From the IMG/VR virus record IMGVR_UViG_3300009537_000076, positions 1-36,758 of that record: a stretch of DNA of 36,758 bases; one strand, written 5' to 3'. The notes under the pieces are model-generated. The model had not been told where the DNA came from. It ran no database searches and saw only the letters and a program-made list of their open reading frames with translations. Below, one piece after another: positions 2,743-32,194 of the stretch (its first letter is position 1; each line of letters starts with the position of its first letter). The DNA comes from a virus. A program made the position numbers and the translations under genes.

Positions 2743-2764
2743 AGTAGCTTATATATATTTAGTA
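2743..2764. promoter_or_regulatory. Divergent 22-base promoter region with TATA elements
   Basis: Only 22 bases separate two divergent ATGs. They hold TATATATA, with CTAAATA on the minus strand. No Shine-Dalgarno site is visible on either side. TATATATT on the plus strand ends 5 bases before the ATG at 2765 and matches TATAAATA at 6 of 8 positions, so it may be a late promoter giving a leaderless or near-leaderless mRNA. Confidence 0.45.
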
Positions 2765-6866: not shown

Positions 6867-6881
6867 TTATCTATATAATAC
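6867..6881. promoter_or_regulatory. Divergent 15-base AT-rich start region
   Basis: Two divergent ATGs are only 15 bases apart, and the gap is ttatctatataatac. It has TATATAAT on the plus strand and no Shine-Dalgarno site for either gene. It may be a bidirectional late promoter, or the promoters may lie inside the neighbouring genes. Confidence 0.3.
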
Positions 6882-13211: not shown

Positions 13212-13772
13212 TTAAAATTTTTCATTTATTTTTGAGAAATTATTTTTGTTCAGCTTGTTTTGAATCATAGCTTTTTCCAGCTTGTTTATTAAATGGTCTT
13301 GATATTTTCTTTTCAATTCGTTATAATTGCGAGCGGTTCTATAAAGCTGTCTAAAGTGGTTAAAAATGCAAGTTGTCATATAGTTAAATGCTTTTCCTTT
13401 ATTTTTATCAAACTTATCTATTTTCTCGAAACAAATCATGACTCCTTCCTGTATAGCATCATCTATGTCTATCAGGTTAAACTTGGCATACTTAGCTAAA
13501 TTTTCTGACAATATATAAAAATTTACAGCAAGTTGTTTCTTTAAATCATCAAAATTATTTAATTCTGAATTGTAATCTCTGACTTTATTATCGAGTTTTA
13601 GTCTGATCTTTTTGTTTTTCGCATATGACTGTCTCAAATCCTCTAATAACAGTTCATACCTAACTTTCAGCTGTTTTGATTTTTGGAAGTTTATAATTAC
13701 TTTTTCGAAAAGCTCATTGTTTAAATACTCTGTGGTCAACACGCTCCAAGATAGAAAAAAGGCACATATCAA
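13212..13772 (-). CDS. Late-transcription sigma factor, T4 gp55-like
   Basis: The region DIDDAIQEGVMICFEKIDKF, with FDKNKGKAFNYMTTCIFNHF and RQLYRTARNYNELKRKY after it, has the pattern of sigma region 2 (promoter -10 recognition and core binding), as in T4 gp55, the small sigma that directs RNA polymerase to late promoters. The N-terminal half is a charged helical stretch. At 186 aa it is the size of gp55 (185 aa). The frame opens at TTG 13772; an alternative TTG (VLTTEYLNN region) has GGAG just upstream and may be the real start. TATAAATA-like elements elsewhere in the window would be its targets. Confidence 0.65.
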   Translation of the reverse strand: MICAFFLSWSVLTTEYLNNELFEKVIINFQKSKQLKVRYELLLEDLRQSYAKNKKIRLKLDNKVRDYNSELNNFDDLKKQLAVNFYILSENLAKYAKFNLIDIDDAIQEGVMICFEKIDKFDKNKGKAFNYMTTCIFNHFRQLYRTARNYNELKRKYQDHLINKLEKAMIQNKLNKNNFSKINEKF

Positions 13773-24316: not shown

Positions 24317-24796
24317 ATGTCCACCAAACGAGAACAACGATTGGAAATGATCGCTAACCAAATGATGAAGGGAATCAATGGTAAGAATATCTCGCCTGAG
24401 CAAGCCCAACGATTTAGAGAAAAATACAGTGATATAATCAATTGGGTTGAAGAAAGTATGCCCAAGGAAATCAGCACTGGAGCCTGTGGTGCAATTGGCA
24501 AAGCAGTGTTATTTTATGGTAAAGACAGAATGGAGAACTTCTGCAACGCCATCAAGAATTGTGAGTTTAACGGTGTTGATGACCCAGCACACGTTCTCTG
24601 GCTTTGGTTAACTAGAACTTCCAGAGATACAAAGGATGTTTATAAAAGGACTGCCAAAGCTATTCGGTGCTACATAAATTGTCGTAAGTTATCTAATAGG
24701 AATTTTGAGCCATGTAAGATTGACATTTTTGAATGGAATGAAGATTATACTGAAATGGTGGTGCCAAAGCAGAAAAATCAATTTACTAGGGTGTAG
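24317..24796 (+). CDS. Paralogue of the C-terminal domain of the ParB-like protein, 159 aa
   Basis: Residues 35-150 align with residues 270-392 of the 408-aa protein at 19845: KYSDIINWVEESMPKE with KHQKVVQWVTHHIRGF, GAIGKAVLFYGKDRM with AVVAKSLLWWGEEAL, FNGVDDPAHVLWLWLTR with FVGDGDPAKALYLWLQK, and IDIFEWNEDY with DDVFEWTPGW. The DGQHR domain is absent. It is thus a stand-alone copy of the helical domain, possibly a regulator or partner of the longer protein. AGGAG lies 7 bases before the ATG. It closes the operon; its 3' end overlaps the convergent gene by 11 bases. Confidence 0.65.
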   Translation: MSTKREQRLEMIANQMMKGINGKNISPEQAQRFREKYSDIINWVEESMPKEISTGACGAIGKAVLFYGKDRMENFCNAIKNCEFNGVDDPAHVLWLWLTRTSRDTKDVYKRTAKAIRCYINCRKLSNRNFEPCKIDIFEWNEDYTEMVVPKQKNQFTRV

Positions 24797-25325
24797 TACC
24801 TCTAGCGGCAGCAGCCTGCCGACCTGCTTGGCTCATACCAGCAATCATTCGTTGACTTGCAGCTTGTTGCTGCTGTTGCTGTTGCCATGCGGCTAACCGT
24901 GCCATCATATCACTTTTTTCTTCAGGTTCTTGTTGTTGTTGTTCAGGTTCTTGTTGCTGTTGTTGTTGTTGAGGTGCATATGCCGTATAGCGATCAAGTA
25001 ACTTATTCAAACTATCGATTCCTTTCCCCCATTCGTTGCTTTGTAAGCGATTTAAGACTGCTCTTCTTAAACCATCATCTTGGATGTTATTAGCACGAGT
25101 CCAGAAAGCATTTAGGTGTTTCTTGAATTTTTGAGCCTGTGCAATCGCTTCTGGAGTAATGCCCCATAACCCTCTCCAGCCACCAGCAGCAGCTTGTTGA
25201 ACGCCACCCTTAATAGCTCCGCCAAGCTGTTGCATCCACGCTGGAGTTTTGAGCAATTCATTAAAAGCAATATTAAGTTCTGAAAATTCTTCCTCTACTA
25301 ATAACCACTCTCTGAAACCCGTCAT
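24786..25325 (-). CDS. Gln-rich protein with capsid-targeting-like start, 179 aa
   Basis: It starts MTGFREWLLVEEEFSELN, which fits the T4-type capsid-targeting sequence, with a [L/I]-x-E site at LVE. A helical middle follows (ITPEAIAQAQKFKKHLNAFW). Residues 118-153 are poly-Gln runs broken by EPE, written with mixed CAA/CAG codons, and the tail is Ala/Arg/Gly-rich. After cleavage it could be an internal head protein; this is inference. CTAAATA ends exactly 5 bases before the ATG, the spacing that would give a leaderless late mRNA. Divergent from the gene at 25340 by 14 bases. Confidence 0.6.
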   Translation of the reverse strand: MTGFREWLLVEEEFSELNIAFNELLKTPAWMQQLGGAIKGGVQQAAAGGWRGLWGITPEAIAQAQKFKKHLNAFWTRANNIQDDGLRRAVLNRLQSNEWGKGIDSLNKLLDRYTAYAPQQQQQQQEPEQQQQEPEEKSDMMARLAAWQQQQQQQAASQRMIAGMSQAGRQAAAARGTTP

Positions 25326-25330
25326 AAGAG

Positions 25331-25337
25331 TATTTAG
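25331..25337 (-). promoter_or_regulatory. Late-type promoter element CTAAATA for leaderless start
   Basis: On the minus strand CTAAATA is followed by CTCTT and then the ATG at 25325. In T4 the late element spans -13 to -6, so transcription would begin at the A of the ATG. There is no ribosome binding site. Confidence 0.5.
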
Positions 25338-25339
25338 CT

Positions 25340-25810
25340 ATGTTTTATTCATTTCCAACAGGTGAATTGAAGAAGGATTATTACAATCTCAAAACTGAGA
25401 ATGTTACGCTTGAAGTAGTTGGAGGTAAAAAGCACACGGACATAGCCAATAATTTCTTAAATGGAACTTACCAAATAAAAGGCATTTTAGATAATGATTG
25501 TATAAAAGATCACTCTAAAATCCTACCTGGAAGTATTTGGAAGCTTACGGTAGGATATGAAAACAGATATAGTACTGTTGATGTTATTTTTATAGACATC
25601 CTCGATATTGTAAATAGTCCTTACCCAAGACTCAGAAGATATAGTTGGCTATTCGGTGTAATCAAGAAGCCCACCAAAGACCAAATTGGTTTTATGCCAC
25701 AAAATGATGGAGAGATTACATTGGATGAATTGTTAGAAGAAATAGGTTCAAACAGAGCAGAAATGAGTACCAGCAAAAAGAAATTTACATCTGAGGGAGG
25801 ATTTTTCTAA
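25340..25810 (+). CDS. Hypothetical protein, 156 aa
   Basis: Not recognised. The first 110 residues are beta-rich (NVTLEVVGGKKHTDIANNFL, LPGSIWKLTVGYENRYS, VDVIFIDILDIV), the rest helical with DGEITLDELLEEIG and a Lys/Gly-rich tail. The pattern of strands could suit a small baseplate or tail protein. The ATG is 14 bases from the divergent Gln-rich gene and has no visible ribosome binding site, so it may be leaderless too. Confidence 0.6.
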   Translation: MFYSFPTGELKKDYYNLKTENVTLEVVGGKKHTDIANNFLNGTYQIKGILDNDCIKDHSKILPGSIWKLTVGYENRYSTVDVIFIDILDIVNSPYPRLRRYSWLFGVIKKPTKDQIGFMPQNDGEITLDELLEEIGSNRAEMSTSKKKFTSEGGFF

Positions 25811-25818
25811 GCAAATAT

Positions 25819-25826
25819 TATAAATA
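25819..25826 (+). promoter_or_regulatory. Perfect T4-type late promoter TATAAATA
   Basis: TATAAATA is followed by AAAGC and then ATG at 25832. The 5-base spacing puts the expected transcription start on the A of the ATG, so the mRNA would be leaderless. Confidence 0.65.
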
Positions 25827-25831
25827 AAAGC

Positions 25832-26143
25832 ATGAAGACATTTGCTGAATATACAAGAGAAAGGAATGCACTTTCTGAAGCTGGTGTGGGGGCACCTGAT
25901 CCTAGATGGGACCCTATGACTTATTTTCAGAATCTACCCCCACAAGAACAAGCTACTGTACAAGCTCGTGCAAAAGAAATGGAAAAATATATTCCCAGAC
26001 CAGATGCTGCCTTAAAGGCTGCGGCATCTGAACATCGCATGAGGGTGATGCACCAACCAACAGACCCTATGGCTGGTGATCCAAGTGCTCGTGGAGGTGA
26101 ATTGGGAGCTCTCCCAAAAAGAGAAATGCGTCCTATGGGCTAA
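25832..26143 (+). CDS. Small protein with capsid-targeting-like start, 103 aa
   Basis: The start MKTFAEYTRERNALSEAG resembles MKTYQEFIAEA of the T4 internal proteins, with a possible prohead-protease site after LSE. The rest is hydrophilic, Pro/Ala-rich and partly helical (PPQEQATVQARAKEMEKYI) and ends in REMRPMG. No enzyme motif is seen. A perfect TATAAATA lies 5 bases before the ATG. It converges with the next gene, sharing 4 bases at the ends. An internal head protein is the best guess. Confidence 0.6.
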   Translation: MKTFAEYTRERNALSEAGVGAPDPRWDPMTYFQNLPPQEQATVQARAKEMEKYIPRPDAALKAAASEHRMRVMHQPTDPMAGDPSARGGELGALPKREMRPMG

Positions 26144-26418
26144 AAAGGAATACCAGCTACTGGCGGCGTTTTTCCTCTTACGTTAAGAAGATAATTCATA
26201 ACTTTATTGTAAATTTCAGGCTTAAATTTTATTTGATCCAAAACATCCTGTCGTTCTTGATCAGAAAGTTCAGCTACCTGTCTTAATGCTTGTCCAATTA
26301 TTTTAGGATTGGGATTTAACAAGCTCATTGCTAATCTTTCTGAAGATGTGGGCACATAGTCATGCATAGCAAAACCGCTGTCATCTCTAGCTTCAAGCCA
26401 TTGTGCAAAACTTTTCAT
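26140..26418 (-). CDS. Small protein with capsid-targeting-like start, 92 aa
   Basis: Read from the ATG at 26418 it starts MKSFAQWLEARDDSGFAMHD, again like a capsid-targeting sequence. Then come helices (LLNPNPKIIGQALRQVAELS, ERQDVLDQIKFKPEIYNKVM). A frame start five codons upstream (26433) exists and lies 1 base after the previous stop, but the element CTAGATA sits 5 bases before ATG 26418, the same spacing as in the sister genes, so I favour 26418. Helical bundle; role unknown, internal head protein by analogy. Confidence 0.6.
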   Translation of the reverse strand: MKSFAQWLEARDDSGFAMHDYVPTSSERLAMSLLNPNPKIIGQALRQVAELSDQERQDVLDQIKFKPEIYNKVMNYLLNVRGKTPPVAGIPF

Positions 26419-26423
26419 GAAAA

Positions 26424-26430
26424 TATCTAG
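26424..26430 (-). promoter_or_regulatory. Late-type element CTAGATA before the 26418 start
   Basis: CTAGATA differs from CTAAATA (25331-25337) at one base and is placed at the same 5-base distance from ATG. Supports the 26418 start and a leaderless mRNA. Confidence 0.35.
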
Positions 26431-26434
26431 CATA

Positions 26435-26959
26435 TCACTTGAAAAACTTATCTGGTAATTTAAATATCTGATCTAAAGCAATCAAAGACCAATCCCTATA
26501 AATAAACCTATATTTCCAATTAAAATGGGGCAAATCTTCTGTTCTGATAAAACACATCCAAGATTTATAATCTTTTTTCCATATTATCATTGGCTTTCTA
26601 CCACATCTTTTACTCTCCAAAAGCACCTGCTCTATAAACTCATCAATCTGTGCATTTCCTTCTGAAAGTGCGGAGTAAAGATCAATATCATTATAGCCCT
26701 TTTTGCTTTCAATTACAAATTTGAAACCCTCTGGAGTAACTATATCTCCAGTAAATGTATCTTGGGCGTGTTTAGGTAGATAACTTACTTGTCCGAATCG
26801 ATTTCCAGAACCAATTGTTCGAGAGAAGCCTTCGCCAAACCTTTCTACAAACAGCTTTACTAAGGCCCTCTCGGAACGCTTACCTTTTTTACTTGAATCT
26901 ACTTTCTTTTTTCTTTTAGGTTTAAGAAGTTCCTCGCCATCATTTAGAATATCTTCCAT
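26435..26959 (-). CDS. PD-(D/E)XK nuclease, resolvase-like, 174 aa
   Basis: The core has KKGKRSERALVKLFVERFGE, RTIGSGNRFGQV, then TGDIVTPEGFKFVIESKKG: D in GDIV and the ESK of VIESKKG form the PD-(D/E)XK metal site near residues 90-110, and NAQIDEFIEQVLLESKRCGR follows. This order (basic helix with Glu, D, ExK, then a long helix) is that of Holliday-junction-resolvase and restriction-type nucleases of phages. The target cannot be told. The ATG at 26959 is chosen over GTG 26968; the start overlaps the amidotransferase gene by 20 bases, so the two are co-transcribed. Confidence 0.65.
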   Translation of the reverse strand: MEDILNDGEELLKPKRKKKVDSSKKGKRSERALVKLFVERFGEGFSRTIGSGNRFGQVSYLPKHAQDTFTGDIVTPEGFKFVIESKKGYNDIDLYSALSEGNAQIDEFIEQVLLESKRCGRKPMIIWKKDYKSWMCFIRTEDLPHFNWKYRFIYRDWSLIALDQIFKLPDKFFK

Positions 26960-27881
26960 ACAACTCACTCATTAGATTATCAAATTCAACTCTAACTATA
27001 CTAGTTAGTTGGGTCTTACTTCTTCTATTAGGCTCTTTAAATATTAGTGTTTTTAATTCTTCAAAAATAATTTGTATTTCTCTACCTTGTTCTGTTGAGC
27101 GTTGGACTGGAAAGTAATCACTATTGTTCCATTCTTGTAAATCGCCATCAAATTGAACATCATAACTATTAAATCCTCCATCGGATTCAAATCGCCACAC
27201 TTCTTCGGTTGGAACTTCTATTAGCTTTTGTTTTTTAAAATTTAAGGAACAAACAGCGTGTGCCCAGATATTAGCTGTCGAACAGAAGAAGATTTGCCCT
27301 AGCTCTTCTCTTAGGTCAATTACCCAAAGCGAACGATGTCTGTTTCGAAAAAGCCATAATGTTTTCTTATCTGCTACTATTTCCCCTAAAGCAACTGCCA
27401 TATGTCCATAATTAATTAACGAAAAAACATTAGCTATTCCAACAGTTCGATCTTGTTCTGCTTCGATTATCCTTAGGATAATCTCAGAATCGCACTCCGA
27501 TAAAACTTGAAAATTCTTCCTAAGTACATTGAACTCAAATATTCGGCCATTATGAATTAAACACAGGCTTTGATTATCGTTGGTAAAGGGATGATTATTT
27601 ATGTTTATTACAGGATGACCGACGCCAAGGCTAGCTTGTCTAGCGTGCAAAAGTAAAATATCTGGATTAAAATCTCTCAAATCCCACCAAACTTTCCTAG
27701 TAGTGAGAATGGAGGATTTAATAGGTTCTTTGTGATAATGAATTTGATTAAATTCATTCGCTGCCCAAAACCCAGCAGCATCTATTCCCCGTGCCTCTAG
27801 TTCACAAAATAAATTTGTGGCTATATCAAAAGTTAAATTGGGATGTTTTGATTTACCTATAAAACCTGCAATTCCGCAAAT
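26940..27881 (-). CDS. Class II glutamine amidotransferase with an ATT start codon
   Basis: The frame continues upstream of its first TTG/ATG to give the missing N-terminus of a class II (Ntn) amidotransferase: (M)CGIAGFIGKSKHPNLTF, where Cys2 is the nucleophile, then LEARGIDAAGFWA, LLLHARQASLGVGHPV with the HxR motif, and CLIHNGRIFE with the NG of the oxyanion hole. Just before the Cys codon the only possible start is ATT at 27881, since TGA lies two codons upstream. GAGGTG lies 6 bases before ATT. The protein would have 313 residues. It would free ammonia from glutamine; no synthase domain is seen, so the acceptor is unknown. Confidence 0.7.
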   Translation of the reverse strand: MCGIAGFIGKSKHPNLTFDIATNLFCELEARGIDAAGFWAANEFNQIHYHKEPIKSSILTTRKVWWDLRDFNPDILLLHARQASLGVGHPVININNHPFTNDNQSLCLIHNGRIFEFNVLRKNFQVLSECDSEIILRIIEAEQDRTVGIANVFSLINYGHMAVALGEIVADKKTLWLFRNRHRSLWVIDLREELGQIFFCSTANIWAHAVCSLNFKKQKLIEVPTEEVWRFESDGGFNSYDVQFDGDLQEWNNSDYFPVQRSTEQGREIQIIFEELKTLIFKEPNRRSKTQLTSIVRVEFDNLMSELYGRYSK

Positions 27882-27947
27882 ATTTCACCTCTTTTGCAAA
27901 ATAGCTCTATTATATACTTTACTTAAAATTTAGCAATATATTTTCTA

Positions 27948-28448
27948 ATGGCACAAAGGAGAGATGACAGAACATTAGGCGAGAAGATTGCCGATTTGAT
28001 TACTCACATGGCTGGCTCTTGGACATTCATTATTAGTTTAGGAGTGTTTCTAGGAGTGTGGATATGTATAAATACTCTCGTTTTATTTGATATTATAGCA
28101 TTTGATAAAAAGCCTTATATTTTGCTAAATTTAATACTTAGCTTTATTGCTGCCTTTCAAGCTCCGTTCATTCTTATGTCTCAAAACAGGACAGAAAAGA
28201 AACAAGATCAAGCTTACAGGATATTGTTTCAGGAGCTTAAAGAATTGCTTGAACAAGATATTGAGCACGAGCAAGAAATTGCTAATTTGGAAAAGGAAAT
28301 AAAGAAAGATCAGGAGTTAGTAAGGTATCAATTAAATAAACTCTTAATTTCTCTGCAACAAGCAATTTCACTTGAGCAACTTACTAGAAAGGATATTGCT
28401 GAAATTCTTGAATTCTATGAAGAACAGGAAAATCAAGAAGAAAGTTGA
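27948..28448 (+). CDS. DUF1003-like membrane protein, 166 aa
   Basis: The N-terminal 90 residues fit DUF1003: HMAGSWTFIISLGVFLGVWI as the first membrane segment, an FDKKPYILLNLILSFIAAFQ second segment, and APFILMSQNRTEKKQDQAYR after it. The last 75 residues are a coiled coil (EHEQEIANLEKEIKKDQELV). The family is bacterial and of unknown function; phage copies are few in my knowledge. It sits alone on the plus strand between minus-strand genes and ends 16 bases inside the convergent gene. Confidence 0.75.
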   Translation: MAQRRDDRTLGEKIADLITHMAGSWTFIISLGVFLGVWICINTLVLFDIIAFDKKPYILLNLILSFIAAFQAPFILMSQNRTEKKQDQAYRILFQELKELLEQDIEHEQEIANLEKEIKKDQELVRYQLNKLLISLQQAISLEQLTRKDIAEILEFYEEQENQEES

Positions 28449-28858
28449 TTTTTATACCATTCCTCTAATCTATCTAGAGCACTTGGAAATGTATCGTTAA
28501 AAACTTCGGTAATATCTCTTTTCATTTCGTTATAATCCATTTTAATTTCTTCTGGGGATGATTTTGGAATAGGACCAAATACTTTTTCTAATAATTGCTC
28601 TTCCTTTGTTGGTGATTGTTCCTTTGGCGGCGGCATTTCTTGCATTTCTTGCAAATGGAACTCATCCCAATACTTGGGATAAATGATTTTGACATAAGGC
28701 ATAGGCAATAGAGCTTCTAAGTCATGCAATAATCCACAACTACAAAATTTATAGGGAAGCCCTCGAAATATGCGACAATCACCAAAATGATGAATTTTAT
28801 TTCCCCAAAAGTACCTATATCGGATGGCATTTAGATGTGTCTGTTGTGCATGGCTCAT
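28433..28858 (-). CDS. Hypothetical protein with Cys/His motif, 141 aa
   Basis: The segment HHFGDCRIFRGLPYKFCSCG followed by LLHDLEALL (residues 23-50) is a pattern I know from phage hypothetical proteins; the Cys and His residues could bind a metal. The remainder is a Pro/Glu-rich linker (EMPPPKEQSPTKEEQ) and a helical end. The ATG overlaps the stop of the capsid-targeted gene upstream (ATGA), so they are coupled. Role unknown. Confidence 0.6.
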   Translation of the reverse strand: MSHAQQTHLNAIRYRYFWGNKIHHFGDCRIFRGLPYKFCSCGLLHDLEALLPMPYVKIIYPKYWDEFHLQEMQEMPPPKEQSPTKEEQLLEKVFGPIPKSSPEEIKMDYNEMKRDITEVFNDTFPSALDRLEEWYKNQLSS

Positions 28859-29223
28859 TCAGCTTCTCCTTGAGCGGGTGCAGCAAGTTTGTGAATTGGG
28901 GTTCCCAACTTCTTACCCAAACGCTCAAGTTCTACTCTAGCACTATTGAGGATTTCTTTCAAGTCGCCTTTTTCGTCAATAGCTTTCGCCAAAGCGACAC
29001 CTACTTTTTGCAGCACTTTCAAAAACTTATATTCTGACCGAGGCCATGTGCTATGAAGAATTTTACGGATTTGATTGACCATATAGTCACAATTCTTAAC
29101 TAACTGCCTAGCTCCAATTTGTTTACCACCCACCAATAGTTCGTGAATACCAGTAAGAACATCACCTACTCTTTGTCCTAAATATTCACGTTGCTCTAAT
29201 AATAAATATTCCTTAAATTTCAT
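28855..29223 (-). CDS. Helical protein with capsid-targeting-like start, 122 aa
   Basis: The start MKFKEYLLLEQREYLGQRVG fits the same targeting pattern, with a possible cut after LLE. The rest is a long helical bundle (VLTGIHELLVGGKQIGARQL, EYKFLKVLQKVGVALAKAI) ending in the Ala/Glu-rich PAQGEAE. It resembles an internal head protein in size and layout only. CTACATA lies 6 bases before the ATG. The next gene starts on its stop codon. Confidence 0.6.
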   Translation of the reverse strand: MKFKEYLLLEQREYLGQRVGDVLTGIHELLVGGKQIGARQLVKNCDYMVNQIRKILHSTWPRSEYKFLKVLQKVGVALAKAIDEKGDLKEILNSARVELERLGKKLGTPIHKLAAPAQGEAE

Positions 29224-29246
29224 ATAAATTATGTAGTAATATCAAA

Positions 29247-29417
29247 TTAATAATCAATCCAACTATCCGTAATTCGCCAGTAAACCTCTAGTTCAGCTTC
29301 GTTAGCATTCTCTATTTTTTCTATCATATCATCATAATATTCTGGATTATGTCCAATATGATACTCATCCCTATACCATTTAACGAGCTCGATAAGGCAT
29401 TCTTTACTTTCAGGCAT
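29247..29417 (-). CDS. Small acidic protein, 56 aa
   Basis: The protein starts MPESKECLIELVKWYRDEYH and ends VYWRITDSWIDY. It is acidic and helical, without known motif. The ATG at 29417 overlaps the last 8 bases of the CTP synthase gene and has AAAGGAAA 5 bases upstream, inside that gene, so it is coupled to it and ends the long minus-strand operon. Confidence 0.6.
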   Translation of the reverse strand: MPESKECLIELVKWYRDEYHIGHNPEYYDDMIEKIENANEAELEVYWRITDSWIDY

Positions 29418-31026
29418 TTGATTTCCTTTCTAAAGCAGCGGAAACCAATCCATTAAACAGAGGTGCAGGATTGCCCAATCTGCTTTTAAATTCAGGATGT
29501 GCTTGAGTTCCAACAAAAAATGGATGATCAATAAGTTCCATCATTTCCACTAAATTTGATTCAGGATTTATTCCAGAAACTTTAAACCCAGCTTTTGACA
29601 AAACTCCAATGTAATCTGGGTTCATTTCAAACCTGTGCCTATGCCTTTCACTAATCAACTTCTTCTTATATAGGTTGGATACCATACTATCTTTACTTAA
29701 TTCACAATCGTAAGCCCCTAGTCTCATTGTTCCAGATTTCTTTCTGATAGCTTCTTGTCCTGGAACAAAGTGGATTATAGGACTTTCAGTGTTTTTATCA
29801 AATTCAGAACTATTGGCATCTTGTATATTACAAAGATTACGGGCAATTTCAATTGCTGCACACTGAAGACCAAGACAGATACCAAGGAATGGAATCTTCT
29901 TTTCCCTTACGTATTTAATAGCCTTGATTTTTCCTTCAACGCCACGAGAGTCAAACCCTCCAGGTACGATTATACCATCGACATCATCAAAATATTTCCA
30001 AATTCCTCTGGCATCCTTGGCTTGTTCAAGTTCTTCAGCAGCGATCCATTTAATTGTCACTCTAGCACTATTAGCAACAGCAGCATGGTAAATTGCTTCT
30101 TTTAGGGAGAGGTAAGCTTCGTCGCAGTTGTCATATTTTCCCACCATAGCAATTTGAATAGAAGGAAGTTCGTGGTTATTTACATATTTTTCTACTAAGT
30201 CTCTATATTTGTAAATTCGGCATGGATTTCTACCAAGTCTTAATTTATCGGAAATAAGATCATCAATATGTCTGTTATAAAATTCAATCGGGACTTGATA
30301 AATGGTTTGAACATCAGGTGCTTCAAAAACTGAATCTCTTGGAACATTTGTTAGACTTGATATTTTATCAAGCATTTTTAAGGGGATTTCACGATCAATT
30401 CTACAAAGCAAAACCTCTGGTTGTAGTCCAAAAGATTGTAAATCCTTCACACTTCTTTGAAGGGGTTTTGTTTTAAATTCTTTGATTGTAGGCACCCAGA
30501 GGATTGGGGCAACAAGAATGATTAGAACTTCTTCATTATTCTTTTGTTTAAATTGTCTAATTGCTTCAAGAAAAGGTCCACTTTCCAAATCACCGACTAC
30601 GCCACCAATTTCACAAATTACAATCTCAGCTTCCTTGCCTAACGATAGAAATCTTTCTTGAATTTTATTAGTAACATGAGGAATTACTTGCACGGTTGTT
30701 CCAAGATATTTTCCGTCCTCATCATCTTGAATGATTTCTTTGTATATTTGCCCGCTGGTAACGATATTTTTTTCTGATACCCTGCAACCTATAATACGTT
30801 CATAATGCCCTAAATCTAAATCACACTCTTTTCCATCATCGCAAAGGAAGACCTCGCCATGTTCCCGTGGAGCAAGAACACCTGCATTACTATTTAAATA
30901 ACCATCACATTTAAGAGGTTGGATTTTATGTCCACGAAGAGAAAGAAGTAGCCCGATACTGGCAGCTGCAATTCCTTTACCAGTACCACTTATTACCCCA
31001 CCAAGAACAAAGATGTATTTGACCAT
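29410..31026 (-). CDS. pyrG: CTP synthase
   Basis: A full two-domain CTP synthase (538 aa) that turns UTP, ATP and glutamine into CTP. The synthase domain has KYIFVLGGVISGTGKGIAAA (P-loop), EHGEVFLCDDGKECDLDLGH with the Mg-binding Asp, and ICEIGGVVGDLES. The class I amidotransferase domain has PGGFDSRG, the nucleophile C384 in GICLGLQ, and H510/E512 in GTQAHPEF. Catalytic residues are present. It departs from the usual type at KCDGYLNSNAGVLAP, where bacteria nearly always have DPYLN and GTM, so it belongs to a divergent branch. No ribosome binding site is clear before the ATG. It would raise CTP for phage DNA and RNA. Confidence 0.92.
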   Translation of the reverse strand: MVKYIFVLGGVISGTGKGIAAASIGLLLSLRGHKIQPLKCDGYLNSNAGVLAPREHGEVFLCDDGKECDLDLGHYERIIGCRVSEKNIVTSGQIYKEIIQDDEDGKYLGTTVQVIPHVTNKIQERFLSLGKEAEIVICEIGGVVGDLESGPFLEAIRQFKQKNNEEVLIILVAPILWVPTIKEFKTKPLQRSVKDLQSFGLQPEVLLCRIDREIPLKMLDKISSLTNVPRDSVFEAPDVQTIYQVPIEFYNRHIDDLISDKLRLGRNPCRIYKYRDLVEKYVNNHELPSIQIAMVGKYDNCDEAYLSLKEAIYHAAVANSARVTIKWIAAEELEQAKDARGIWKYFDDVDGIIVPGGFDSRGVEGKIKAIKYVREKKIPFLGICLGLQCAAIEIARNLCNIQDANSSEFDKNTESPIIHFVPGQEAIRKKSGTMRLGAYDCELSKDSMVSNLYKKKLISERHRHRFEMNPDYIGVLSKAGFKVSGINPESNLVEMMELIDHPFFVGTQAHPEFKSRLGNPAPLFNGLVSAALERKSNA

Positions 31027-31157: not shown

Positions 31158-31736
31158 TTAAATTTTTACAAAGTAGGAACTGATAGCTTGATCATAAGCA
31201 GTAATTTTCGCAAAAGCAGTCCTCGCCAAATTCTTGCGAGTTTCTAGACTCAGACCTTTTTGTTCCTGGAGTTCGGTGAGAATTTCTGCGTATTGTGTCG
31301 GATCGGTCACAATAGCCACATCATGGTAGTTCTTGGCTGCCGCCCTTACTAGCGTAAAACCGCCAATGTCGATGTTCTCAATAATCTCTTTGTGAGAGCT
31401 TCCTGATTGGGCAACAATTGCCTCAAATGGATAGAGATTACATACAACTAAATCAATGGGTACAATTTTGTGTTCACTGAGCGTTTGTTGGTGTTGTTCA
31501 TTGTCACGCAGAGCCAGGATTCCGCCGTGAATATGAGGATGGAGCGTTTTTACCCGACCATCCAAGATTTCAGGGAAGCCAGTGACATCAGATATATCAC
31601 GTACCAATAACCCTGCACCCTTCAGGGTTTTACATGTACCGCCCGTTGAAATCAATTCAACACCTAGTTCGCTCAAACCTCTTGCCAGTGGTATTAATCC
31701 TGTTTTGTCGCTGACGCTAAGTAATGCTCGATTCAT
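31158..31736 (-). CDS. purH: Stand-alone IMP cyclohydrolase domain of PurH
   Basis: The 192-aa protein is the N-terminal, MGS-like half of PurH, which closes the ring of FAICAR to IMP: NRALLSVSDKTGLIPLARGL, ELISTGGTCKTLKGAG, VTGFPEILDGRVKTLHPHIH GG, VCNLYPFEAIVAQ, ENIDIGGFTLVRAAAKNYHD. It ends neatly after AFAKITAYDQAISSYF, at the boundary where the AICAR transformylase half (about 320 residues) would begin. I choose ATG 31736, which has AAGGAG 7 bases upstream. Base composition is clearly GC-richer than the genes around it, a sign of recent gain from a bacterium. Whether a phage or host transformylase completes the step is open. Confidence 0.9.
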   Translation of the reverse strand: MNRALLSVSDKTGLIPLARGLSELGVELISTGGTCKTLKGAGLLVRDISDVTGFPEILDGRVKTLHPHIHGGILALRDNEQHQQTLSEHKIVPIDLVVCNLYPFEAIVAQSGSSHKEIIENIDIGGFTLVRAAAKNYHDVAIVTDPTQYAEILTELQEQKGLSLETRKNLARTAFAKITAYDQAISSYFVKI

Positions 31737-31747
31737 TCGGAGTCTCC

Positions 31748-32194
31748 TTAACCATAATGAGGAACTGCAAATTGTTCTTTGCAAGAACGATCAACTGCAT
31801 CACTAATTTTCTTCAAAGTTTCAATTTCAACAATAAGGTGGGAAAAATAATGAGGAACATCCCCACCAAAACTGGTACAACTGGATTTAATCAATTTGAT
31901 ATACTTTTCTTTATAAGCGTATGCTTCAATTAAATTTTCGCCAAAAGACCATCCTCTTGGCGGAACAGTTCCTGTCCAAAAGGGCTTGCGACCACTTGGC
32001 TTTACTGCATTTTCGTATGCATCTAAAATTTCTCTAAAATGATGTTTTTCCAACTCGATATAATCATGTTCTGTGTAAATCGCAAAATTGCCATGACTGA
32101 CCCAATCAAGTTTTATTTTAAATTTATTATCATCATCTTTTATTTTTAAAATATGTTCTGACTCAAACTCTTCAATTAAAAAATTCATTGTCAT
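31748..32194 (-). CDS. Hypothetical protein, 148 aa
   Basis: Not recognised. The first 60 residues are beta-rich (HILKIKDDDNKFKIKLDWVS, NFAIYTEHDYIELEKHHF), the rest is helical with PFWTGTVPPRGWSFGENLIE. It lies 11 bases upstream of the PurH-domain start. Its ATG follows 2 bases after the stop of an 8-codon leader ORF with a strong ribosome binding site, so its translation probably depends on reading of the leader. Confidence 0.55.
   Translation of the reverse strand: MTMNFLIEEFESEHILKIKDDDNKFKIKLDWVSHGNFAIYTEHDYIELEKHHFREILDAYENAVKPSGRKPFWTGTVPPRGWSFGENLIEAYAYKEKYIKLIKSSCTSFGGDVPHYFSHLIVEIETLKKISDAVDRSCKEQFAVPHYG

Follow-up and report, generated by a model that had tools for sequence, protein, structure and literature searches.

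Four short genes in the stretch of viral DNA analysed here (36,758 nucleotides; hereafter the window) are probably part of a regulon whose cargo proteins bear a capsid-targeting signal of the T4 type and are made late in infection, from mRNAs that are leaderless or nearly so. Each would be an otherwise unrelated cargo protein with an N-terminal signal, or tag, of about 10 to 15 residues that resembles those of T4 internal proteins (M-x(1-3)-F-x-[EQD]-[WYF]-[LIV]-E..., in most cases followed by an E at about +2 to +5), and the four genes are predicted to belong to a large regulon that occurs in one clade of huge phages related to T4. That the proteins are packaged and cut by a protease, and where exactly their mRNAs begin, we infer from homology and from position.

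Late in infection, a gp55-like sigma factor would bring RNA polymerase to the NTA[ACGT]ATA boxes that lie 4-6 nt before the ATG codons, and at this distance transcripts would therefore start at, or a few nucleotides from, the A of AUG. The resulting leaderless or near-leaderless mRNA is predicted to be translated without a Shine-Dalgarno (SD) site. During assembly, the aromatic pair of the tag might dock the protein on the prohead core, as suggested by positions 4 and 7 of the T4 capsid-targeting signal (CTS). In a large fraction of the proteins, a gp21-type prohead protease would then cut the tag off at [LIV]-x-E. The cargo would stay in the head and would probably be ejected together with the DNA, for early takeover or counter-defence.

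Four tagged genes and their late elements

The window represents part of the genome of a huge, uncultured virus of bacteria and is syntenic with LR756511, a 595-kb uncultured huge phage. The four starts, their late elements and the spacers between them, as given in the preliminary description, were confirmed by direct reading of the sequence (Table 1), as was the absence of an SD site ahead of any of the four starts. An [L/I]-x-E site is found early in three of the four proteins (LVE, LSE and LLE), also as first described; the protein beginning with MKSF is without one. For gene 3, the mechanical open reading frame (ORF) begins at 26433, 15 nt upstream of the ATG at 26418; transcription is predicted to start downstream of the ATG at 26433, which the element overlaps.

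Table 1. Features of the window. A slash follows the [L/I]-x-E site.
Feature	Coordinates	Strand	Description
Untagged divergent gap	2743..2764	.	22 bp with TATATATA; serves ATGs 2742 (-) and 2765 (+) in near-leaderless geometry
Divergent gap	6867..6881	.	15 bp, TTATCTATATAATAC; between ATGs 6866 (-) and 6882 (+), with overlapping TATA elements, one for each side
Divergent sigma, T4 gp55-related	13212..13772	-	Candidate late-promoter recognition protein; phrog_351 E=4e-7, phrog_234 (late sigma) E=5e-5
Tagged gene 1	24786..25325	-	179 aa, MTGFREWLLVE/EEFS..., C-terminal half Q-rich; start MTGFREWLLVEEE
Late element CTAAATA	25331..25337	-	5 nt (CTCTT) ahead of ATG 25325; read in sequence
Late element TATAAATA	25819..25826	+	Exact T4 consensus; 5 nt (AAAGC) ahead of ATG 25832
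Tagged gene 2	25832..26143	+	103 aa, MKTFAEYTRERNALSE/AGVG...; start MKTFAEYTRERNALSEAG
Tagged gene 3	26140..26418	-	92 aa, start MKSFAQWLEARDD..., no clear [LI]-x-E
Late element CTAGATA	26424..26430	-	5 nt (TTTTC) ahead of ATG 26418
Tagged gene 4	28855..29223	-	122 aa, MKFKEYLLLE/QREY...; start MKFKEYLLLEQRE
Late element CTACATA	29230..29236	-	6 nt (ATTTAT) ahead of ATG 29223

Pfam and PHROG searches with the four tagged proteins returned no meaningful match, and IMG/VR yielded no homologs of tagged protein 1, of tagged protein 2 or of the neighbouring gene (25340-25810). Tagged genes 1, 2 and 3 are without a counterpart in LR756511. Orthologs of gene 4 occur in LR756511 and in three other huge phage contigs (G001, G005 and G006), and all retain the tag; in a four-sequence alignment, M1, F3, K4, L7, E10 and Q11 are invariant, and the LR756511 ortholog has CTACATA at 5 nt. 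An AlphaFold model of the gene 4 protein, built from 3 sequences (pLDDT 83), shows a simple bundle of helices in which the tag lies within helix 1, and comparison of this model with the PDB gave no significant match.

Coupling of tag and late element

For counting, the tag was defined as M-x1-3-aromatic-x2-aromatic and the late element was placed 4-8 nt ahead of the ATG. The window has 263 ATGs followed by at least 50 open codons, of which 10 match the tag pattern and 9 are preceded by NTANATA at 4-8 nt; both occur together four times, compared with about 0.34 expected (Fisher p=1.2e-4). The motif search proposed in the preliminary description was run on LR756511 and yielded 48 ORFs with tag and element, or about 8 per 100 kb (odds ratio 20, p=8e-37), against a chance level of 1.15 +/- 1.08 (2000 position shifts, maximum 7). 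Only the i,i+3 spacing of the aromatics is enriched, with 48 cases versus 3-14 at other spacings. The spacer is 4-5 nt in 43 of 51 tagged cases in LR756511, and SD-like words are depleted (4/51 tagged genes versus 213/473 other genes).

The tag as a probable capsid-targeting signal

Residues 4 and 7 of the T4 CTS have a role in targeting, and residues 8 and 10 in processing (PMC9026906). The CTS of T4 internal proteins IPI, IPII and IPIII is an N-terminal propeptide of about 10 residues with two aromatics three apart, followed directly by a hydrophobic residue and E; the mature parts are unrelated, and the protease is the T4-type gp21 (PMC9026906). All four window genes have two aromatics three apart at the extreme N-terminus. 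The tags differ from the T4 signals in their preferred F-x-[EQ]-W-L-E, in a promoter that abuts the ATG, in hardly any SD sites and in number, with 48 tagged-plus-element genes in LR756511 and three IP proteins plus Alt in T4.

Within offsets 1-8 behind the tag, sites of the form [LIV]-x-E are in excess (46/141 versus 125/1335, p=1e-12), and no excess is seen further on. Fewer than half of the tagged proteins (61/141) have such a site within about 13 residues; [LI]-x-E behind the tag is a statistical property rather than one common to every member. The window, at 37 kb, stops short of the capsid and protease region and is without these genes. Because LR756511 is syntenic with the window, its capsid and protease presumably have equivalents in the window phage. 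In LR756511, a T4-type prohead protease gene lies beside the gp23 capsid gene (PF03420 E=7e-28; PF07068 E=5e-87), and gp23 is also adjoined by three tagged ORFs, of which one probably starts with GTG. Among 19 records from which tag-hit or relative loci came, 12 also contain a protease gene of the gp21 type.

Perhaps the tag is real and its genes co-regulated, and the proteins dock to some other late structure, such as the baseplate, the tail or phage-modified host machinery. Packaging is a prediction for these proteins, and the bodies of the tagged LR756511 proteins tested mostly match no known family, as this alternative would permit. We nevertheless regard it as unlikely: the aromatic pair, the hydrophobic residue and the E correspond to positions that have a function in the T4 CTS, the excess of [LIV]-x-E is confined to the region just after the tag, and both the distribution of the protease and the tagged ORFs beside gp23 point to the capsid.

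Candidate late promoters and predicted leaderless messages

T4 late promoters consist of a gp55-read TATA box, NTANATA, about 10 bp before the expected start. In the elements described here, a TATA-type box lies roughly one turn of the helix ahead of the predicted start, and a gp55-type sigma gene is encoded in the window. Its ortholog in LR756511 (464.3-464.8 kb) is 58% identical and matches phrog_234 with E=7e-8. This sigma is highly diverged from that of T4: the gp55 match is weak in LR756511, G001 and G005 and was not found in the contigs G006 and G009. The T4 gp45 clamp model (phrog_223) also has no match in LR756511, where a diverged clamp could escape detection. A further difference from T4 is that a box 4-6 nt before the ATG leaves no room for a leader with an SD site. 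Where the spacer is 4 nt, it falls 1 nt below the classical T4 -6/+1 spacing. As in T4, leadered versions precede core genes: in LR756511 the element is 18 nt upstream of gp20, which also has AGGAG, and 33 nt upstream of gp23.

The geometry extends beyond the tagged genes. In LR756511, 112 ATGs have an element at 4-8 nt, and 64 of these (some by chance) are untagged, which makes this class of promoters broader than the class of tagged genes. In the window, near-leaderless geometry is also found ahead of a head-tail adaptor gene and at two divergent gene pairs (Table 1). The ATG at 2742 is that of the adaptor Ad2 (phrog_211), and the ATG at 2765 begins a protein of 1058 aa. The LR756511 pair orthologous to that at 6867..6881 has a 22-bp gap and the same layout.

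It is quite improbable that the element is an AT-rich, translation-related signal and that transcripts arise elsewhere. The promoter role is read from sequence and the gp55-like sigma is weakly matched in the clade, which leaves this explanation some room. However, the box agrees with the TATA box of T4 late promoters, the boxes of gp20 and gp23 lie well upstream of their start codons, and boxes occur on both sides between divergent ATGs that are just 11-35 bp apart.

Distribution in other huge phages

The coupling of tag and element recurs in four other phage contigs of 320-380 kb: G001 (p=1e-21), G005 (p=2e-15), G009 (p=4e-15) and G006 (p=6e-12). The GC content of G005 is 56%. Ortholog pairs retain the tag and spacing at 33-79% body identity; in one set (LR756511 413518, G001 79113, G005 126305 and G006 36981), the spacers are 4, 4, 6 and 4 nt. 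An IMG/VR scan that used tag codons alone gave element distances that peak at 4 nt (11 cases) and 5 nt (9 cases), with 0-3 cases at other distances. A second scan, with MLNFKEW, gave only 14 stretches and is weak.

The central idea of the preliminary description, a T4-CTS-like start coupled to an element placed for leaderless transcription, holds genome-wide in LR756511 and in these four contigs. The geometry is not exclusive to tagged genes, and not every tagged gene has it: some orthologs of tagged genes have leadered or SD-type starts, and in G008, a 352-kb huge phage contig, the late box lies about 20 nt upstream of the ATG of tagged genes. G008 shares the tag family, the T4-type protease and late boxes before tagged genes, and differs in its leaders and in its strong gp55 match (E=3e-42). 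Coupling of the tag with a near-ATG element is absent from T4. A universal T4-like trait is ruled out by T4, G008, CM1 (300 kb), and P-SSM2 and Atu_ph07 (50 kb each, partial).

Conservation might also be imposed at the level of nucleotides, if certain bases are needed in the part transcribed first or where a leaderless message begins, with the peptide as a by-product. The block CTAGATAGGGCATGAARACNTTY, which is nearly identical ahead of unrelated genes in one phage group, is the kind of observation that such a constraint would produce. We consider this very improbable, given that across LR756511, G001, G005, G009 and G006 the first aromatic is encoded by TTT and TTC and the second by TGG, TTT, TTC, TAT and TAC, that the residues in between vary widely (D, KT, LN, EG, VRE...) at constant aromatic spacing, and that G008 has the tag in leadered genes. 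Chance association of AT-rich upstream regions with a loose peptide pattern, to which two short motifs and only four window cases might lend themselves, has next to no probability in light of the genome-wide tests, the comparison of open with closed ATGs, the shifted-position and reversed-pattern controls, the other aromatic spacings, the 56% GC contig and the control phages.

With the capsid-targeted regulon as the preferred reading, it is conceivable, and we suggest only tentatively, that late box, start codon and tag form one portable cassette of about 45 bp. By landing ahead of a coding sequence, such a cassette would make its protein late, leaderless, packaged cargo, and these huge phages might use it to exchange cargo. 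Ten genes of one phage group are alike around the start and unrelated upstream of about -40 and downstream of about +30 (pairwise identity 0.26-0.31); the shared block had itself been partly selected for. The three-gene tagged cluster of the window occupies a site at which LR756511 has nothing.

Relation to known systems and implications

Giant phages of the phiKZ/SPN3US type carry many head ejection proteins that are trimmed after E by a gp21-related protease (PMC9026906, PMC7411985), which the predicted packaging and trimming of the tagged proteins would resemble. Those phages use phage multisubunit RNA polymerases, in contrast to the T4-type capsid, late sigma and uniform short N-terminal tag of the present group. 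No description of the coupling of tag and element was found in the open-access literature searched.

Huge phages have hundreds of genes of unknown function, and the DNA signature of late box, 4-6 nt, ATG and tag would flag about 20-50 likely virion-carried proteins per genome. A T4-type late transcription system may also be able to express an entire functional class mostly from leaderless messages, with leaders retained by core capsid genes; standard gene finders that seek SD sites may therefore choose wrong start codons for these genes. Counter-defence and takeover factors are expected among the proteins that a virion delivers along with its DNA. The cargo predicted in LR756511 includes one NADAR-domain protein and one C39-type peptidase.

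Tagged genes and their origin

Four genes in the window (a virus record of 36,758 bp with 36% GC and dense coding on both strands) encode proteins that begin with a tag resembling the capsid-targeting sequence (CTS) of T4. The N-terminal peptides, MTGFREWLLVEE, MKTFAEYTRERNALSEA, MKSFAQWLEARDD and MKFKEYLLLEQ, carry one aromatic at position 3 or 4 and a second three residues on. A late element (T4-type TATA box, NTANATA) lies just ahead of each ATG, and the starts, elements and spacers match the preliminary description exactly, as do its claims that a Shine-Dalgarno (SD) site is absent (0/4) and that an early [LI]-x-E occurs in three of the four proteins. Within the window alone, tag and element at 4-8 nt are found together four times, compared with about 0.34 expected (p=1.2e-4).

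Locations of the tagged genes, divergent pairs and additional features
Feature	Location	Strand	Element, spacer or gap
Tagged gene 1	window, start 25325	minus	CTAAATA-5-ATG
Tagged gene 2	window, start 25832	plus	TATAAATA-5-ATG
Tagged gene 3	window, start 26418	minus	CTAGATA-5-ATG
Tagged gene 4	window, start 29223	minus	CTACATA-6-ATG
Divergent pair	window 6866/6882		15-bp gap
Orthologous divergent pair	LR756511 468317/468340		22 bp
Divergent pair	window 2742/2765		22-bp gap
CTP-synthase-like gene (phrog_28378) and PurH-like fragment	window 29410-31026, 31158-31784		
Class II glutamine amidotransferase domain (Pfam), TTG-started ORF	window 26940-27680		
bS21 homologs	LR756511 332226-332384; G005 326-457, 88286-88447; G006 143297-143419		
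Second S77-type (gp21-like) protease match (L006)	LR756511 242621-242989	minus	

The uncultured phage LR756511.1 (595,163 bp) turned up in a tail-tube search. Homologs of most window genes form a single block there (450-473 kb), with order kept and orientation reversed. Because gene order is shared with this block and further tail and connector families agree with the relationship, the window is a piece of a huge phage genome. LR756511 has no counterpart of tagged genes 1-3 or of the gene at 25340; the homologs of the flanking window genes 24317 and 26435 abut there (at 453,949 and 453,961), so 24786-26433 is an accessory cluster. The LR756511 ortholog of tagged gene 4 (58% identity) retains both the tag and the same element, here with a 5-nt spacer. 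The CTP-synthase-like, PurH-like (both recognized by eye) and amidotransferase regions of the window are possibly nucleotide-metabolism genes, some perhaps incomplete.

Coupling of tag and late element

ATGs with 50 or more open codons behind them were examined in LR756511, with closed-frame ATGs as the control. Elements 4-8 nt upstream are in sharp excess at open-frame ATGs, with no such excess at closed-frame ATGs, and occur at 48 of 225 tagged versus 64 of 4,852 untagged ATGs (OR 20, p=8e-37). The genome motif search proposed in the preliminary description, run on LR756511, yields 48 cases, against a mean of 1.15 and a maximum of 7 in 2,000 shifts of the element positions. Coupling is restricted to aromatic spacing i,i+3; other spacings give 3-14 cases. 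In the 51 tagged cases that start with ATG or GTG, spacers are 5 (27), 4 (16), 8 (4), 7 (2) and 6 (2), and SD-like words accompany 4/51 such genes versus 213/473 others.

The same coupling is found in the huge-phage contigs G001 (28 cases, p=1e-21), G005 (20, p=2e-15), G009 (22, p=4e-15) and G006 (19, p=6e-12). AT-richness is ruled out as its cause, because G005 is 56% GC. G001 was entered through the tagged gene 4 ortholog and the other three through tag codons, with no promoter requirement, so the choice of contigs did not select for the promoter association. A tag-only IMG/VR scan found upstream elements at 4 nt 11 times, at 5 nt nine times and at other distances 0-3 times each; 16 of 19 records have the tag-plus-element pattern and none of the 19 its reverse. 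In one phage group (L062, L036, L056, L060, L063), many genes open with a near-identical CTAGATAGGGC-ATGAARAC block, after which their bodies are unrelated.

Orthologs across phages retain the tag and mostly the geometry. Those at LR756511 413518, G001 79113, G005 126305 and G006 36981 have bodies 33-62% identical and spacers of 4, 4, 6 and 4, and LR756511 364431 and G001 31705 each have a spacer of 6. Four aligned tagged gene 4 sequences have invariant M1, F3, K4, L7, E10 and Q11, and residues 8-10 are LLE, ITE, LTE and LLE. The G001 and G006 orthologs of this gene have no box, and because some orthologs of tagged genes carry SD-type starts instead, the geometry can be lost.

Predicted leaderless geometry

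In T4, a late promoter consists of a TATA box of 8 bp placed roughly one helical turn ahead of the start (PMC2988020), so a box ending 4-6 nt before ATG should direct initiation on or beside the A. We infer that the boxes serve as promoters of leaderless messages. Near-leaderless starts are favored by the near absence of SD sites, by coexisting leadered late genes in LR756511 (gp20, box 18 nt upstream and AGGAG ahead of ATG; gp23, box 33 nt upstream) and by divergent ATGs as close as 11-22 bp whose TATA boxes are usable both ways. Between such a box and the start codon, there is no room for a leader and SD site. Divergent pairs of this kind also occur in LR756511 (8), G001 (4), G009 (3), G006 (6) and G005 (2), compared with one in T4 and none in the 352-kb phage contig G008 or Stenotrophomonas phage CM1. 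In both window pairs, the intergenic DNA consists solely of a near-palindromic TATA box, and these might be bidirectional leaderless late promoters. The geometry that the preliminary description ascribed to the tagged genes is therefore present but not exclusive to them: divergent untagged pairs also have the box at the start codon, including that of the head-tail adaptor (1840-2742). Three leaderless-type phages have homologs of ribosomal protein bS21, which might be tied to leaderless translation.

G008 also encodes the protease and has numerous tagged genes (MKSF..WL.EA, MNTF.EYI), but its boxes lie about 20 nt upstream of the tagged ATGs. The gp55 match is strong in G008 (E=3e-42) and CM1 (E=1e-31), weak in LR756511, G001 and G005 (E about 1e-7 to 1e-8), and not found in G006 and G009. 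G008 is tagged but leadered and gp55 match strength differs, so the combination of tag and late promoter seems to be common to a broader range of large T4-related phages. Moving the box up against the start codon, by contrast, is a trait of some members, whose late sigma has diverged. The tie to the sigma is a correlation only.

Putative cut site, protease and proposed cargo

Ten N-terminal residues of T4 IPIII are enough for targeting, and within the CTS positions 4 and 7 set targeting and 8 and 10 processing (PMC9026906). Among 141 tagged proteins, L, I or V follows the second aromatic in 67% (background 23%), E comes next in 38% versus 6%, and E is at +5 in 31% versus 7%. [LIV]-x-E at offsets 1-8 is enriched (46/141 versus 125/1335, p=1e-12), with no enrichment beyond these offsets. 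In LR756511, the gp23 capsid gene (PF07068, E=5e-87) has as neighbors a prohead protease of T4 type (PF03420, E=7e-28) and, directly beside it, tagged genes. A prohead protease is encoded in 12 of the 19 records from which the tag and relative loci come. Tagged proteins would enter the head, be cleaved and be ejected. The CTS, gp21 and late promoters are known from T4; searches of the open-access literature turned up neither a CTS-like regulon this large nor one coupled to leaderless late promoters.

Among the tagged LR756511 cargo, a NADAR domain protein (E=2e-19), a C39-type peptidase (E=5e-14) and a HAD-type protein (E=2e-15) could be identified; most other tagged proteins there have no family match. 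A counter-defense role for the NADAR cargo is plausible, because NADAR enzymes undo guanine ADP-ribosylation (PMC11125620). In LR756511, the second S77-type protease match and the capsid genes are some 280 kb apart.
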